This document shows, piece after piece, positions 44,713 through 50,288 of a stretch of 64,000 nucleotides of DNA. Within the stretch, counting starts at the first letter, position 1, and the number at the start of each line of letters is the position of its first letter. The notes beneath the pieces are model-generated. The model worked only from the letters and a program-made list of their open reading frames with translations. It had not been told where the DNA came from and did no database searches. Location of the stretch: positions 558,001-622,000 of the forward strand of contig NZ_CP027190.1 of the NCBI RefSeq assembly GCF_002970915.1. Direction: 5' to 3'. This stretch comes from Lactobacillus sp. CBA3605 (GTDB lineage: Bacteria > Bacillota > Bacilli > Lactobacillales > Lactobacillaceae). The translations under genes were made by a program, and so were the position numbers.

Positions 44713-44766
44713 AATTGACTGGTAACCTGGTGACAGCTGTCATCCGTTTGCCAGTCAATTTTTTTA
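44713..44766 (+). terminator. intrinsic terminator after the usp gene
   Basis: Stem AATTGACTGG / CCAGTCAATT (44713-44722 with 44751-44760), inner TGACAGCTGTCA hairpin, 7-base T tract. Confidence 0.85.
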
Positions 44767-44770
44767 TCCT

Positions 44771-44805
44771 AAAAAGCACTTAAACGCAATGTTTAAGTGC
44801 TTTTT
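44771..44805. terminator. terminator at the end of the zinc-ribbon gene cluster
   Basis: Perfect 15-bp stem (44771-44785 with 44791-44805), loop GCAAT. T/A runs are within the stem, so it can act on both strands; it lies 4 bases past the lipoprotein stop. Confidence 0.85.
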
Positions 44806-44809
44806 AGGA

Positions 44810-45694
44810 CTATTGTGGATCACCTGGTGCTTTGACTGTACCATCAGCTCTAACAATCCAACAAAGTCCGTCTGGCGTGACAAAAGTCCAGCCGCCAGTT
44901 GAACCTTGGTCGATTTTCAACTCATCCATTGAATAGCCCCCAAAATCCCCACCCGCAGGAAAAGCCGCAATTAACGCCGCCTTCGCTTGGTCTTCAGTTA
45001 AGCCAGTTGAACTGGATGCACTACTACTGCTAGCCGCAGTCCCACGCGTACCAGTGCTAGTTTCGGAATTTGACGCTTCATCAGTGGTCGTCGATGCGTC
45101 GTCGTCAGCATCAGTCGACGAGTCAGTCGTTGTTTCTTCATCACTGTAACCACTCACCGATTTATTAGCCGCAATCAATTTTTTGTTTTTCAGATTACTC
45201 GACTTGGCAACCCCATTCTTAAAATCAGCATAGGCCAATTTATTCGCTTTATTCAAGTATTCGATAATCCCACTACCCAAAGTACTTTGCTCAGGAATTG
45301 TCGTGAAGAGCTGATCAACACTCTGAGTTTGACCAGCTTTAACCTTTAGGACGCCACGCTTTTTTGATAATTTTTTGTCGCCATCTAAGATAAAGACAAA
45401 CTTGGTCCGGTTAAATTTGATTGTCTTCTTTGATCCATTAGTGACCTTCATTGAAACCACGTAAACTGGATCCGCATAATTATCCTTGGTCTCATCTTGA
45501 TCCAGCTTAAATTTAAATTTGACCTTGGCTTTATCGCCCTTTGTCAAATTTTGATAATACACCGTTTCAGTCTTCGTTGCTGTTTTTGTGGTGGCTTTTT
45601 TTGTCATCAGAGCACCACTATGCTTAAAACTACAACCGACTAACAACCACACACTCCCAATGACCATCACAGCTAATTCGATTTTACGTTTCAT
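44810..45694 (-). CDS. putative lipoprotein with Ser/Thr/Asp-rich linker
   Basis: A 294-residue exported protein. The signal peptide ends in LLVGC, giving a lipobox Cys near residue 21. Residues about 50-165 form a beta-rich region with YVVSMKVTNGSKKTIKF, like the DUF4352-type immunoglobulin-like domains of Firmicutes lipoproteins. A linker of about 50 residues rich in Thr, Ser, Asp and Glu follows (about 185-235), then a small C-terminal domain ending in WTFVTPDGLCWIVRADGT. Start ATG (45692-45694) follows GGAGGATA. It is the last gene of the zinc-ribbon cluster, which suggests an extracytoplasmic partner. Function unknown. Confidence 0.75.
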   Translation of the reverse strand: MKRKIELAVMVIGSVWLLVGCSFKHSGALMTKKATTKTATKTETVYYQNLTKGDKAKVKFKFKLDQDETKDNYADPVYVVSMKVTNGSKKTIKFNRTKFVFILDGDKKLSKKRGVLKVKAGQTQSVDQLFTTIPEQSTLGSGIIEYLNKANKLAYADFKNGVAKSSNLKNKKLIAANKSVSGYSDEETTTDSSTDADDDASTTTDEASNSETSTGTRGTAASSSSASSSTGLTEDQAKAALIAAFPAGGDFGGYSMDELKIDQGSTGGWTFVTPDGLCWIVRADGTVKAPGDPQ

Positions 45695-45730
45695 CACAGT
45701 TTATCCTCCAAAATTGCTGGTCCCCCGGCG

Positions 45731-46408
45731 CTAATCATTAAAATCATAAATAACCGTCCCATTTTCAACAATGTACAAATACCGATCCTCATTCTCAGGA
45801 TTGACTAACTGAACTTTGACATCATGATCCTTCGTCGGCATTTTGTCGGCCATTTCCTCAGAGATTTTTTTGAATTTTTCCAGATAAGTTGAAATAATGC
45901 CATTACTGTCATCGTAAGTAATCACATCCTCAACGGCCTGATAAAGCTTGGAATCATAATCTGGAATCACTCGAATTGAGTTCGTGCGTTTTGAGTAATA
46001 AACTTCATTGCTTGAACCGAGGTGCTCGGTAACTACCGTTTGACTAATATCAGCAATCGCCTGTTCCGACAAATGGTTCCGCTGATAAGTATCATAGCCA
46101 TACTTCCCCAAACCAACCACGATAACCAAGACAATCACGCCAATAATAATTGATAAACTACTGTGACTAGCTGGCGCTGTGGGTGCGGACTGACTGGTTG
46201 CTTGATTGACCGGTGGGACATCAGCAACTGGCACTGATTGCTGTGGCTGCGTTGCCGACGTTACCGGTTCAGATTTGCTGACCGCACTTGCCGGCGCAAC
46301 AGCCTGCGGACTTGGCTTTTCAGACCTTGCCGGTTGCTTCGTCCCGCAAAACGGGCAAAATTCAGAATCAGCTTCAATTTTTTGACCACACTTAATACAA
46401 AATTTCAT
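45731..46408 (-). CDS. zinc-ribbon membrane protein, unknown C-terminal domain
   Basis: A 225-residue protein. It opens with a double CxxC zinc ribbon (Cys 4, 7, 18, 21: MKFCIKCGQK then EFCPFCGTK), followed by a Pro/Ala/Ser/Gln-rich linker, one membrane helix (about 84-106) and a C-terminal domain of about 115 residues outside the membrane. The topology resembles the TcaA-type zinc-ribbon proteins, but I do not recognise the C-terminal domain. The start is immediately after the stop of the serine hydrolase gene (adjacent bases), implying coupling. Confidence 0.75.
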   Translation of the reverse strand: MKFCIKCGQKIEADSEFCPFCGTKQPARSEKPSPQAVAPASAVSKSEPVTSATQPQQSVPVADVPPVNQATSQSAPTAPASHSSLSIIIGVIVLVIVVGLGKYGYDTYQRNHLSEQAIADISQTVVTEHLGSSNEVYYSKRTNSIRVIPDYDSKLYQAVEDVITYDDSNGIISTYLEKFKKISEEMADKMPTKDHDVKVQLVNPENEDRYLYIVENGTVIYDFND

Positions 46409-47662
46409 TTAGTTATCCTCCAAAATAGCCTGATACAGCTTGGTCCCCAGACTGTTCATTGCTGTAACTTGTTCGGTTTCATCACCATCTTGTGATAAGA
46501 CCACGACAACAAATGCCCCCTGCGTATTCTTGATAATCGCCGCATCATTTTGAACGCCATAATCCCCATACTCACCGGTTTTGTTATAAACAATCGCATC
46601 ACTTGGTAAATCATGCGGTAATTTAGCATGATTCGCATTTTGGCGCATGATTGTTAGCATGGCCTGATCCGCAGTCCGCGAAATCAGCTTGCCTGAGTAC
46701 ATCTTAGTTAAAACCGTCGCAACATCAGTCACTGAAGTGTAGTTATCCTTGCCATCAGCCAATGCAGCTGTATCCATCATCTTTCGTTCTAGTTGTGTTT
46801 CACTTAAATCTAATCGTTCAATTTCAGCATTAATCGTACTAATACCGCCAACTTTATCAATCATGATATTTGCTGCCGTATTATCACTTTCATCCATCAT
46901 GCGCTTCAAGATTTCACGATAACTTAACTTACTACCAGTCGGCAGCCCTTGGAGCGTCCCCGTGCCACCAACTTTGTCGTTAGCCGTTAACGTATAACTC
47001 TCATCCAAGTTTAACTGGTCTGAATCAACTTGATGGTAAGCTGTAATCAAAATAAACAGTTTAATCAAGCTTGCGGCCCGTTGGGACTGGTCGTTTTGGA
47101 CCACTTTGGCCGAACTATCCGTTGCGGCTACGGCTACTGACGTTGTCCCCTTTAGCCCCGACAAGCTCGTATTAATCGCCTGTTTAATGCTTGCTTTCGG
47201 AAATGACGTTTTAGTTGCCACCGATGACGACTGCTTTTTAGTTGATTGACTTGATTGTGCCGCCGTTTTTTTAGCAGTCGCCGGCGTGGCCTTTTTCGCT
47301 ACTGTCATTGACTTGGATTGACTGTGATGCGTTATGACCGCATAGGATGCGCCGCCAACGATTGCGACCAGAACAATAATCACAATGATTAACCACCAAT
47401 AATGCTGCTCGGGCGGCTTTTTCACCGTTGAACGTTGTGGCGCATTGCCCGTTGAATCAGCTTGGCCGGTCGCTGACGTTTGACTTGCACTGGTTGCAAC
47501 CGAATCACTGCGTTGTGCTTGACTAGTGGTTACGTCGGCACTACTTGATTCAGTTGCTGCTAGTTGTGATTTAGGCGGCACTACTTTGCTAAGTGGCTGA
47601 CCACAGTTACGACAAAAGCGTGCTTCCGCTTGATTTTTTGTCCCACAGTATTTACAAAACAT
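46409..47662 (-). CDS. zinc-ribbon, membrane-anchored class A beta-lactamase-like serine hydrolase
   Basis: A 417-residue protein with three parts: a zinc ribbon (Cys 3, 6, 17, 20), a Ser/Thr/Gln-rich linker and membrane helix (about 89-111), and a C-terminal domain of the beta-lactamase class A fold (about 155-417). The catalytic motifs are intact: SLIK (Ser198, Lys201), SDN (259-261) and KTG (361-363), with a Glu in the omega-loop region (about 292). Such proteins without a signal peptide may act on cell-wall peptides rather than drugs; that is inference. Start ATG at 47660-47662 is preferred; the ATG three codons upstream is only 2 bases from GGAGG. Confidence 0.82.
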   Translation of the reverse strand: MFCKYCGTKNQAEARFCRNCGQPLSKVVPPKSQLAATESSSADVTTSQAQRSDSVATSASQTSATGQADSTGNAPQRSTVKKPPEQHYWWLIIVIIVLVAIVGGASYAVITHHSQSKSMTVAKKATPATAKKTAAQSSQSTKKQSSSVATKTSFPKASIKQAINTSLSGLKGTTSVAVAATDSSAKVVQNDQSQRAASLIKLFILITAYHQVDSDQLNLDESYTLTANDKVGGTGTLQGLPTGSKLSYREILKRMMDESDNTAANIMIDKVGGISTINAEIERLDLSETQLERKMMDTAALADGKDNYTSVTDVATVLTKMYSGKLISRTADQAMLTIMRQNANHAKLPHDLPSDAIVYNKTGEYGDYGVQNDAAIIKNTQGAFVVVVLSQDGDETEQVTAMNSLGTKLYQAILEDN

Positions 47663-47684
47663 TGCACTCATTTCCTCCAAATTT

Positions 47685-48779
47685 TCAATCTGTCTGCCCC
47701 TGTTGCAACGTCTTAATTTCCCGTAAACCTGCATCAATCAGCACCAATATAATGACCCACGCAATAATAATCAAAATGGTGTACTTTTCCATATTAAAAG
47801 ATAACGGTGCATCCCAAGTGGCGTGCAAGGCGATTGCTAATAAGAAAAATCGAATAAAACGGCCATTCTGAAAAACACTGGTTGAAAGTGGCGCCGATCC
47901 CTTGGCTAGCGCTAAGGCAGCACCAACAATGGCACACCATAAGGTATGAGTCCCCAATGCCGTAACACCCCGCAGTAGCAATACGGATACCCCTAATTCA
48001 CCGGCGTAACCAGCTGTTTCAAACGTCGCAAAGCCAGCACCGATGGCCGCGCCAATCAACATGCCATTTAAAATAAACTTGGTATTAATCCGATTAATAT
48101 AGTAAGCAATCATGATTAACTTACCAGTCTCTTCAATTACGGCGACAATGGCCGCTGTCACAATTGACATTTGACCAATTTCAACAAATTGATATAATCC
48201 CAACGTAGCCAATAGTGAAGCCACACCACCCACCATGAAAATCTTAGTGACTTTAAAAATACTAATATTTTTAAACGTATTAATCTCAAAAAACATAATT
48301 AATAGGGAAAACGGCACTGCTAATGAGCTAATCGAAATCAACCCAACGTACATCTTTTGCCCATTTAAAACATAGAGACTGCCGACAAGTAAGCTAATCG
48401 TTAAAATAAATAACGCTAACACGCGTGAAAATAACCACGGTTTCACCGGTGAATCACTCACCTGTGCCAAAGTTGGCGTCGTTTGGCTAGTCCCAACAAT
48501 GAAGAGCGCTTCGGCTTCCGTTTCAGAATGCGATTTAAAAACTTCACTGAACATGGTGCCCAAATGAATCGGTACCTTCTTCTGTTCACCGGTCCAACTG
48601 TTTAACTTTTCCGTCGCCGAATCAAACAAATTTTGCGTTGGATGAGCAGCTTGTGCTTGCTGCTGATTCGTCGCCGCAGTTACGTGCATGTCACTGACAT
48701 TAAAACCACAATTAGTGCAGAACTTGGCCCCATCAGCCAATGCCTGACCACATTTGGGACAAAAACTAACATTATTCAT
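47685..48779 (-). CDS. zinc-ribbon PrsW-family intramembrane protease
   Basis: A 364-residue protein: zinc ribbon (Cys 7, 10, 21, 24), about 90 residues of linker, then seven to eight membrane segments. The PrsW (glutamic-type, CAAX-protease-like) motifs are present: EETGK at 216-220, FATFE at 250-254, His278 and HATWD at 319-323. Bacillus PrsW cleaves the anti-sigma factor RsiW; no anti-sigma gene is visible here, so the target is unknown. The gene lies 11 bases after the DUF805 gene and 22 before the serine hydrolase gene. Confidence 0.85.
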   Translation of the reverse strand: MNNVSFCPKCGQALADGAKFCTNCGFNVSDMHVTAATNQQQAQAAHPTQNLFDSATEKLNSWTGEQKKVPIHLGTMFSEVFKSHSETEAEALFIVGTSQTTPTLAQVSDSPVKPWLFSRVLALFILTISLLVGSLYVLNGQKMYVGLISISSLAVPFSLLIMFFEINTFKNISIFKVTKIFMVGGVASLLATLGLYQFVEIGQMSIVTAAIVAVIEETGKLIMIAYYINRINTKFILNGMLIGAAIGAGFATFETAGYAGELGVSVLLLRGVTALGTHTLWCAIVGAALALAKGSAPLSTSVFQNGRFIRFFLLAIALHATWDAPLSFNMEKYTILIIIAWVIILVLIDAGLREIKTLQQGQTD

Positions 48780-48790
48780 ACTAAAATCCT

Positions 48791-49330
48791 CTATTCAAAC
48801 CGATTGGCTTGGGTATCCCCACGACGACATAACAAAACAAGTAAATAAATCCAACCTACAATTGGTAGTAGCATCCACCAGTAATTGGCAAATGACCGAT
48901 TGCCATCATGCAAGCGGCGACTAACCGCCGTCAATGATGGCAAACAAAAGACCGCCGAGAAAATAGTCAGTAATAACTGACCTAGTTGCGCATCAAACAA
49001 CAGATAAATAGCCATCAACACCAAATAACATAACTCATAGGCTAGGATTGACCACCAGTAGTTTGCACGGCTCATTCGACCACGGAACTGCGCATATTTA
49101 CTAAAGTATTCCTTAAAGGCCCCCACCAATCCCAAATTCGATTGATAATCAATATTGGGTGTTGCTTGATTACGTGTCACTTGCGGTTGCGCTGGATTCA
49201 TAGTGGGCGTTACTGGTGGCGTTACTACAGTACTCTCATCAGTGCTAATCTGACTTAAATCTAAACCACAGTTTGGACAAAAGCGGGTCTCACGATCAAT
49301 CTTCGAACCACATCTAGGACAAAAACTCAT
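48791..49330 (-). CDS. zinc-ribbon DUF805 membrane protein
   Basis: A 179-residue protein with a zinc ribbon at the N-terminus (Cys 4, 7, 18, 21 in MSFCPRCG and RFCPNCG), a Thr/Pro-rich linker, and a DUF805 domain with FRGRMSRANYWW, RRLHDGNRS and about four membrane segments. DUF805 proteins are widespread small membrane proteins of unknown role. The start ATG (49328-49330) follows GGAGGAAT. This is the first gene of the cluster, divergent from an XRE regulator with a 286-base gap between starts. Confidence 0.82.
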   Translation of the reverse strand: MSFCPRCGSKIDRETRFCPNCGLDLSQISTDESTVVTPPVTPTMNPAQPQVTRNQATPNIDYQSNLGLVGAFKEYFSKYAQFRGRMSRANYWWSILAYELCYLVLMAIYLLFDAQLGQLLLTIFSAVFCLPSLTAVSRRLHDGNRSFANYWWMLLPIVGWIYLLVLLCRRGDTQANRFE

Positions 49331-49616
49331 TATAATTCCTCCAAAGTGTATCACTTTTGCGAACGTCGTTACCTAACTAGCTAGTATCGCAAATGTCACA
49401 ACTGCTGATTCCATTGCCTTTCTCGACTTTGCAAATGACTTACCTGCAGTTGTTTCCCACTTTAACTAACAAATTAATAAACGTATTCACATATTCCTAT
49501 ACAAAATTATAATTATATCGTTTTACTTTAGCAAGCACTTTTAGCAATATCATCCACCTATCAGTATAGAATCCCTGCTTCCATTGCTATACTAATGTGA
49601 TACAAGGGGTGATTTT
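49331..49616. promoter_or_regulatory. divergent control region of the zinc-ribbon cluster and the XRE gene
   Basis: AT-rich 286-base gap. A minus-strand TATAAT near 49520 may be the cluster -10. Copies of GTGATACA lie just before each start, in opposite orientation (49347-49354 minus, 49597-49604 plus). AGTATAG/CTATACT (49563-49569, 49587-49593) flank the likely XRE promoter (TGC-TATACT). Confidence 0.45.
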
Positions 49617-50288
49617 TTGGTCGACAAAACCTTTGGTAGTCGTTTAAAAGAACTTAGAATGCAAAAAGGCTATTCCGTACGCAGAGTCGCTCTTTATGGC
49701 GGTATTTCTTCTTCCTATTATTCACAAGTTGAAAATAATAAACGTAAAATTCCAAAACCAGAAACCTTAAGAAAAATTGCAACGGGACTACGTATTTCTA
49801 CTAATACAATCTTCGAACTAGCAGGACTTCTACCTGAGAATTCAAACCCGGAGCTTAACTTGTCACCGACTCAAACAGCACACAAAATTTCACTGATTGG
49901 CGCCAATGATCAAATCATCTTACCCACCAATCAGCGCGTCTACACCCAACTCCCACCATTAGGGGCCAGTCATCAAACACACTATTATTGGTTGCGCATT
50001 ACCGAGGACAACATGCACAGTGAAGGTATTTTACCTGGTGATTTAGCAATCATTAGTACCAATCCAAAACTAAGTTTGTTTTCTGAAATTCATCGTAGCC
50101 GGCTAGTGGCTGTCAACTTAAAGCATCAATATAACACCGTCATTCGCCGCGTCCTTTGGATTACAGATGATCACTATTTCATTATCAATCCACGTGAAAG
50201 TGAAGAACCACTCGTAATAACTGGCAGTGAATTTAAAACAATCTTTACTGGGGTCGTGATTAACGTGCACCGCGCAATCAACGGCTGA
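49617..50288 (+). CDS. XRE-family regulator with protease-dead S24 (LexA/CI-like) domain
   Basis: A 223-residue regulator with an N-terminal HTH_3 (about residues 6-65, GGISSSYYSQVENNKRKIP as recognition region) and a C-terminal S24 peptidase-like fold (about 95-220). The usual GDSM with the nucleophile Ser reads EDNMHSEG, and the usual T(I/V)KR(L/V) with the catalytic Lys reads TVIRRV, so self-cleavage is unlikely. It may keep only the dimerisation role. Start TTG (49617-49619) follows AAGGGGTGA. It is divergent from the zinc-ribbon cluster and is its likely regulator. Its AT-rich codon use at the 5' end is somewhat unlike its neighbours. Confidence 0.8.
   Translation: MVDKTFGSRLKELRMQKGYSVRRVALYGGISSSYYSQVENNKRKIPKPETLRKIATGLRISTNTIFELAGLLPENSNPELNLSPTQTAHKISLIGANDQIILPTNQRVYTQLPPLGASHQTHYYWLRITEDNMHSEGILPGDLAIISTNPKLSLFSEIHRSRLVAVNLKHQYNTVIRRVLWITDDHYFIINPRESEEPLVITGSEFKTIFTGVVINVHRAING

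Follow-up and report, generated by a model that had tools for sequence, protein, structure and literature searches.

The closest published precedent for the locus described here is the zinc operon llmg_0524-0525-0526 of Lactococcus lactis, in which two membrane proteins with the motif CX2CX10CX2C are encoded together (PMC4628341; this and the other papers are cited from excerpts). The motif binds zinc there, PhoA fusions place the N-terminus in the cytoplasm, and deletion of the motif disturbs growth and the response to lysozyme; an effect on wall integrity is likewise reported (PMC4628341). Zinc ribbons have also been reported in YdjG and in PspC fusions in papers on phage shock protein (PSP) systems (PMC11237479, PMC9239133), and PrsW of Bacillus subtilis is known as the site-1 protease of RsiW (PMC3482391, PMC4602095). 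A role of PrsW as a toxin-export protease has been proposed, in an excerpt that does not mention a zinc ribbon (PMC3482391). Here we describe an operon of ribbon-bearing membrane proteins in Lactobacillus sp. CBA3605, found in a window of 64,000 nucleotides, the whole stretch analyzed (contig NZ_CP027190.1, positions 558,001 to 622,000; positions below are those of the window). We tentatively read it as a self-regulated cell-envelope module of ribbon-tagged membrane proteins, a reading that falls a little short of an even chance.

The operon consists of four consecutive minus-strand genes, encoding a DUF805 protein, PrsW, SerH and Zr4, followed by a lipoprotein gene and then by a strong hairpin:

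48791..49330, minus strand: DUF805 membrane protein with an N-terminal zinc ribbon (179 aa; PF05656, 72.1 bits, above the cut-off of 25.7 for DUF805 membership)
47685..48779, minus strand: PrsW-type intramembrane protease with an N-terminal zinc ribbon (364 aa; PF13367, 73.6 bits, cut-off 23.5)
46409..47662, minus strand: SerH, made of a ribbon, a linker, one transmembrane (TM) helix and an extracytoplasmic class-A-fold serine hydrolase (417 aa; PF13354, 188.4 bits)
45731..46408, minus strand: Zr4, made of a ribbon, a disordered linker, one TM helix and a small alpha/beta extracytoplasmic domain (225 aa)
44810..45697, minus strand: lipoprotein without ribbon (lipobox LVGC, seen by eye in the translation)
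44766..44810, no strand assigned: candidate bidirectional hairpin terminator (20-pair stem with A/T tracts)

All four ribbon proteins carry C-x2-C-x10-C-x2-C at the N-terminus and exceed the 25-bit cut-off of PF13240 (Zn_Ribbon_1) in their matches (DUF805 32.9, PrsW 33.9, SerH 31.5, Zr4 29.4), and a PF13240 search of the lipoprotein gave no match. The intergenic gaps in operon order are 11, 22, 0 and 33 bases, the 22 being counted to the ATG that we took as the SerH start (its longest open reading frame, ORF, begins further upstream at a TTG). The 81-nucleotide stretch with the hairpin folds at -33.4 kcal/mol (z -7.6); the hairpin was not among the items listed by a general pattern scan, and it fits a terminator common to the ribbon operon and the convergent uspA-like gene. 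As far as the sequence can tell, the four CX2CX10CX2C genes (gaps 0-22 bases, where two in one operon would define the class) share an operon, and the genes of the four ribbon-plus-membrane proteins and the lipoprotein are tightly packed on the same strand, with a single promoter-like region ahead of them and a single terminator behind. A preliminary description, drawn from the letters of the window, had reported four consecutive ribbon genes with the same CxxC spacing and a lipoprotein last, gaps of 0-40 bases and a single terminator; translations and PF13240 matches, the measured gaps and the 20-pair stem bear this out.

The TM helix that follows ribbon and linker is predicted by hydropathy in orthologues and appears as a long helix in the AlphaFold model of Zr4, whose mean pLDDT is 69.6 (block means of 79-90 for the ribbon and 67-90 for residues 111-210). 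We aligned the DUF805 protein with 8 orthologues and Zr4 with 8 relatives, in one of which (L034, 26% identical) the outer part is divergent. The lipoprotein is 54% identical to its homologue in L034, and that copy matches DUF5067 at E 0.0076, below the cut-off.

The preliminary description ended at position 49330 and did not include the divergent regulator gene or the operator-like sites, which lie in the intergenic region 49331-49616:

49617..50288, plus strand: XRE-type regulator with a degenerate S24-like C-terminal domain, divergent from the operon (HTH_3, 47.0 bits)
49519..49532, minus strand: operator-like site 1, RCWAAAGTRAWACR, overlapping the -35 of the ribbon operon's promoter-like site
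49347..49360, minus strand: operator-like site 2, RCWAAAGTRAWACR, just 5' of the DUF805 ribosome-binding site
49591..49604, plus strand: operator-like site 3, with one mismatch, preceding the regulator gene

The promoter-like site, TTGCTA-17-TATAAT, lies at 49534-49506, upstream of the ribbon operon. Homologues of the regulator gave 25 matches in 23 of the 397 Lactobacillaceae genomes, and the 13 regulator loci considered below are those of the 12 strongest matches (E 6.3e-27 or lower) and L035. Paired sites were present in 12/12 regulator loci examined (nine with both sites exact, three with one exact and one with one mismatch), with starts 122-178 bp apart, and in the thirteenth, G072, both sites are exact and 164 bp apart. 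The motif was derived from 11 intergenic regions, and the counts on those 11 are not independent of it. Independent of the derivation are G072, G260 (one exact site, one with one mismatch), 14 alleles of the locus without the regulator, in which no exact copy and just one match with one mismatch were seen, and the loci of the remaining 13, weaker matches, among which only L151 (G040) has an exact site. The CBA3605 genome has 6 exact sites, two of them at the operon, against 1 for a backward control pattern; the remaining four do not look like regulon promoters. Site 3 occurs at this threshold only in G000 and G019.

The regulator scores 21.6 bits with Peptidase_S24, under the cut-off of 23.3, and an alignment of 12 sequences shows neither Ser nor Lys at what we take to be the dyad positions. 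Since both residues are missing, it is probably non-proteolytic and not autocleaving, and it falls outside the LexA/CI-type autocleaving repressors as defined by an S24 domain above cut-off and a Ser-Lys dyad. Two of the weaker matches also lie near ribbon genes. At L151:1459-2872 a ribbon membrane protein is encoded directly 3' of XRE and ImmA-like (HELGH, by eye) genes in a prophage-immunity-like arrangement, with one exact operator-like site, and in L150 (G010 contig 10, about 5.4-6.6 kb) the match lies ~0.9 kb from a ribbon gene, with no exact site.

The ribbon genes cluster well beyond this locus. Five genes of the CBA3605 genome score above the cut-off for the ribbon and four of them form the operon, a succession with a chance probability of ~1e-8 if 2,400 genes are assumed. 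The fifth (L102:5740-6165) encodes a protein of 141 aa with two predicted TM helices and has no ribbon neighbour. Ribbon genes were found in all 21 Lactiplantibacillus-group genomes searched, where 150 of 152 ribbon matches, merged by a 300-bp rule, gave 138 genes. As many as 85 of these lie within 2.6 kb of another, compared with 1.6 expected and a maximum of 12 in 5,000 random placements, a test that used rounded genome sizes and draft assemblies and is a weak null where genes may duplicate. Tandem duplication alone does not account for the CBA3605 operon, in which the modules behind the ribbons match different Pfam families or none. Runs of five ribbon genes in a row occur in other Lactiplantibacillus genomes (L087:5535-10567, L104:5428-10456, L223:5999-11084 and L224:6047-11098); that of L087, a second ribbon cluster, includes two TcaA-like proteins and one protein with DUF6574.

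PrsW with a ribbon also keeps different company from PrsW without one. Matches to PrsW at E 1e-40 occur in 95 of 397 Lactobacillaceae genomes and are of two sorts, with the ribbon (taken as a match start at residue 13 or earlier, which leaves G290, starting at 13, doubtful) and without it; two of 113 rows, starting beyond residue 100, were dropped. SerH lies within 300 bp of PrsW in 17/39 of the ribbon sort vs 0/72 of the other, both lower bounds since the SerH search scored at most four candidates per genome (Fisher 1e-9, uncorrected for kinship). These pairs span seven genus groups and two gene orders; in G131 the distance from a ribbon-less PrsW to a SerH-like gene is 2.1 kb, beyond the limit. 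Likewise, a second ribbon lies within 1.5 kb of PrsW in 29/38 loci of the ribbon sort (all except G290) vs 0/17 of the ribbon-less sort, the 17 being drawn from the 72, mostly best-scoring and from few genera. No ribbon was found anywhere within 1.5 kb in those 17 loci, the N-terminus of PrsW included. The search for the gene set in relatives that the preliminary description proposed thus finds ribbon-PrsW keeping its ribbon and SerH neighbours (29/38 and 17/39), but the set is not fixed, SerH standing alone in 7/21 genomes.

Indeed, the locus is constant in its flanks and variable in its content. Genes of uspA-like and XRE-TPR type flank it in 21/21 genomes. The regulator and a ribbon operon lie between them in seven (G000, G002, G003, G004, G007, G018 and G019), of which only G000 and G019 have SerH, and neither operon nor SerH is present in six (G001, G009, G010, G013, G014 and G017). 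Of the regulator loci, 12/13 encode DUF805 together with a single-pass ribbon protein at the position of Zr4 (the outer part of that in G002 has no clear relation to Zr4, at 26% identity overall), 11 have PrsW and 11 are missing SerH. The usual regulated core is DUF805 with a single-pass ribbon protein, and PrsW, SerH and the lipoprotein are optional. At L036:11787-16109 and L041:11805-16254 the lipoprotein is missing and a run of secreted-looking proteins follows the operon, including three repeats of the same type.

The catalytic motifs of the two enzymes are well retained. The motifs EExxK, FExxxY, H and HxxxD are present in 39/39 distinct PrsW sequences aligned, and by these and its PF13367 fold the protein belongs to the PrsW family, with 44.7 bits against the NCBIfam PrsW equivalog NF033739 (cut-off 225). 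The anti-sigma domain zf-HC2 was not found in the CBA3605 genome at E 0.1, where a B. subtilis control was positive, so the classical PrsW route would be without its usual substrate here. Matches to sigma-70 region 2 in this genome are a 380-aa ORF of main-sigma size, one in the neighbourhood of rpmG-secE-nusG and a 210-aa ORF whose weak score does not reach the cut-off. The second is presumably sigH-like, to go by those neighbours, and no anti-sigma-like neighbour was seen in the 3.2 kb covered.

SerH retains SxxK, SDN and KTG in 21/22 sequences (the window protein and 20/21 homologues). The deacylation motif of class A beta-lactamases is ExxLN; the corresponding site in the window SerH reads ETQLE, and across the 22 sequences the acid position is E in 1, D in 17 and K, Q, G and N in 1 each. 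The protein thus has the SxxK, SDN and KTG of class A beta-lactamases but does not qualify for that class by ExxLN or by the NCBIfam class A model (113.4 bits, cut-off 200); the nearest solved chains are 4ewf and 4hes. Because SxxK, SDN and KTG are retained while the ExxLN site varies, its motifs mark SerH as an acyl-enzyme of the penicillin-binding fold and not a proven beta-lactamase.

The clustering, the partner preference and the paired-site regulator fit a ribbon that serves as the shared handle of a co-regulated module. It is quite probable, in our judgment, that the operon is a functional joint module. In the self-regulated envelope module that we favor, the CI-like regulator would repress the operon via the -35 site and the ribosome-binding-site site, and relief of repression would lead to joint production of the operon proteins. 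The ribbons, which we infer from the L. lactis operon (PMC4628341) to be cytoplasmic and zinc-bound in proteins that influence the wall, may be small docking and stability heads that gather membrane proteins of different function; for a protein-docking head as such, the case is about evenly balanced. Outside the membrane, SerH would act as an active-site-serine acyl-enzyme on wall stem peptides, with the lipoprotein and the outer domain of Zr4 as putative surface partners. PrsW may trim or shed the single-pass ribbon proteins, Zr4 and perhaps SerH; their plan (N-in, one TM, C-out) resembles that of RsiW, a known PrsW substrate. That PrsW cleaves a ribbon partner is conceivable, if on balance doubtful.

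Relatives in other genera and on mobile elements share parts of this organization. In three genus groups (L196, L207 and L208), PrsW, SerH and further ribbon genes occur together with a lipoprotein of some similarity (30-40%) to that of the operon. Several SerH-PrsW pairs have a one-TM protein (about 221-247 aa) encoded 5' of them; that at L197:3026-3712 has three C-terminal zinc ribbons, the reverse of the usual layout, and copies in L194, L195, L198 and L211-L213 are N-terminally alike. A closely similar operon in another genus (G023, L185:4779-10843; PrsW 90% identical), without the regulator and with one operator-like site, likely reflects horizontal transfer; a short lipoprotein-like remnant and transposase-like genes were seen nearby, both by eye. 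Across the order, 52/395 genomes have a PrsW match at E 1e-30, and outside the family only those of G541 and G629 start at residue 4, the rest at residue 40 or later.

Fifteen plasmid records carry a PrsW relative, three of which were inspected. Those of Lactiplantibacillus argentoratensis and Pediococcus damnosus combine ribbon PrsW with an IS30-type transposase (broken in P. damnosus), a single-pass piece and a lipoprotein. The single-pass piece is ribbon-less and 42% identical to the G002 single-pass protein (L251), and the lipoprotein is 42% identical to that of the operon (L251) and split in two pieces in L253. The transposase separates ribbon PrsW from the single-pass gene, and the lipoprotein follows (L251:6986-10809 and L253:6986-10795). 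Within 4 kb of a Staphylococcus carnosus plasmid lie three ribbon genes, for a PrsW with two ribbons (40% identical), for a further ribbon protein and, on the opposite strand, for a DUF805 protein (28% over the aligned part); no SerH was found on plasmids at E 1e-30. Five Listeria or Staphylococcus phage records, which are without annotation, hold PrsW relatives (42-45% identity over parts of residues 50-327), and the DUF805 protein had no match in phage records at E 1e-3. Viral contigs gave only ribbon-sized matches, 4 for the DUF805 profile and 1 for PrsW. The DUF805 protein is matched along its length by a PHROG that bears the label moron membrane protein (E 5e-27). PADLOC returned HTH models for the regulator and, beyond these, one weak match, to the linker and TM helix of Zr4 (E 5e-4).

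Several observations weigh against a joint, self-regulated module. The L. lactis authors see the ribbon as stabilizing, not sensing; its zinc site is stress-stable and the operon is not induced by envelope stress (PMC4628341). Of the preliminary proposal of an assembly or sensing handle, it is therefore the sensing that the L. lactis paper disfavors, while a handle of a co-regulated module agrees with the clustering, partners and regulator seen here. An intact lone SerH occupies the locus in 7/21 genomes (G006, G008, G011, G012, G015, G016 and G020), without a ribbon in G015, and that of G005 is broken by several stop codons at the same locus (L244:1471-2569). The G072 regulator locus has no PrsW, and that of G007 has no DUF805, PrsW or SerH and holds another ribbon gene, the lipoprotein and a short ribbon ORF. 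A fixed complex is unsupported, because PrsW, SerH and the lipoprotein come and go and SerH is often solitary. In 9/38 ribbon-PrsW loci no other ribbon shows within 1.5 kb, although two of these (L093 and L095) have as their next gene a SerH with a ribbon beyond that distance. Likeness between ribbons of the same operon does not exceed that after shuffling (0.40 vs 0.39, p 0.16), so there is no sequence sign of mutual recognition; ribbon-by-ribbon recognition is unproven. Finally, the cluster and partner statistics take no account of shared ancestry. Many of these points would be expected of a gene family spread by tandem duplication and module shuffling, with the ribbon as a folding or stability cap and a common locus rather than a common function. 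Grouping of ribbons by gene (likeness 0.52) and not by operon, solitary SerH, ribbon-PrsW loci without a second ribbon and the stabilizing role favored for L. lactis (PMC4628341) all suit it. We nevertheless consider it somewhat unlikely: the modules behind the ribbons match different Pfam families or none, ribbon-less PrsW lacks these partners in the sets examined (0/72 for SerH, 0/17 for a ribbon) and the paired-site regulator goes with the core.

The adjacency of SerH to ribbon PrsW, which recurs in seven genus groups with two arrangements of the genes, the retained SxxK, SDN and KTG and the variable acid of the deacylation site could also point to a split sensor of beta-lactams or wall damage, working like BlaR1, with SerH acylated outside and PrsW as the membrane protease. 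Such a sensor is rather improbable, as SerH is missing from 11/13 regulator loci and often solitary, and an acidic residue is still present in 18/22 SerH. Fixed flanks with variable content in 21/21 genomes, the copy in another genus near transposase-like genes, the plasmid copies, the CI-like regulator, the PHROG moron match and the PrsW relatives in phage records would suit an accessory cassette that is mobile and serves competition or self-protection, akin to bacteriocin immunity or lysogenic conversion. The DUF805 protein is unmatched in phage records at E 1e-3, however, and with viral contigs yielding only ribbon-sized matches and PADLOC one weak Zr4 match, we regard this origin as decidedly improbable. 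Regulated intramembrane proteolysis of the B. subtilis kind, in which PrsW cuts a zinc-binding anti-sigma factor and thereby frees an ECF sigma factor, has the PrsW fold and motifs and the known RsiW route (PMC3482391, PMC4602095) in its favor. It is highly improbable here given the absence of zf-HC2 at E 0.1, the nature of the three sigma-70 matches and an equivalog score far from its cut-off. A bolder proposal, to which we give little credence, is that the ribbon is a zinc-dependent address label by which ribbon-PrsW recognizes like-folded ribbons and cleaves single-pass partners, the freed ribbon-linker piece reporting to the CI-like regulator at its paired operators. If true, it would amount to a proteolytic signaling circuit of Bacillota that is free of sigma and anti-sigma factors and assembled ad hoc from any ribbon-tagged membrane protein.

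The self-regulated envelope module would give order to annotations now scattered as "zinc ribbon domain-containing protein": ribbon-bearing PrsW is accompanied by ribbon-bearing neighbors, across genera and on plasmids. It offers candidate PrsW substrates in a genome in which no zf-HC2 anti-sigma factor was detected, and a defined promoter-like region and regulator as a readout for the inducing signal. The varying gene sets that reuse the ribbon tag suggest that cell-surface machinery may be put together in a way so far little known. We found one experimental paper on such ribbon proteins in lactic acid bacteria (PMC4628341), and ribbon genes occur in all 21 genomes.

Compared with known systems, the operon resembles PSP/Lia envelope-stress systems such as that of YdjG in having ribbons on membrane-associated proteins of one operon (PMC11237479, PMC9239133), but none of its five proteins matches PspA, PspC, Toastrack or SHOCT at E 1. 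It shares the intramembrane protease fold and catalytic motifs of B. subtilis PrsW; unlike the latter, its PrsW is ribbon-tagged, scores far under the equivalog cut-off and occurs in a genome with no zf-HC2 domain found. TcaA of Staphylococcus aureus has an N-terminal intracellular zinc finger, one TM helix, a large outer part (predicted there) and wall effects (PMC10328498), a plan close to that of the single-pass proteins here. In contrast to TcaA, the five proteins match neither outer-domain model, PF22813 or PF22820, at E 1, and NCBIfam TcaA scores are at most 16.5 bits of 550 among the matches listed (for SerH, the best 25 of 97); ribbon clusters elsewhere in the genus do encode TcaA-like ribbon proteins. 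In a table of strain-specific genes for Ligilactobacillus saerimneri M-11, two ribbon proteins and PrsW have consecutive accessions; the excerpt discusses PrsW alone and does not link the ribbon genes to it (PMC12737469). The L. lactis operon, the nearest relative in kind, differs in that its ribbon proteins number just two and are separated by a hydrophobic protein of 64 aa, and PrsW, a serine hydrolase, DUF805 and a divergent regulator go unmentioned in the excerpts of that paper (PMC4628341). Our literature searches found no description of the present gene combination or its regulator. The preliminary statement that none was known holds for the combination in the literature searched, but not for the kind, which had been described in 2015 (PMC4628341). 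CX2CX10CX2C membrane-protein operons and TcaA thus make this a known kind of system, to which the locus adds a combination of genes and a regulator that are new in that literature.

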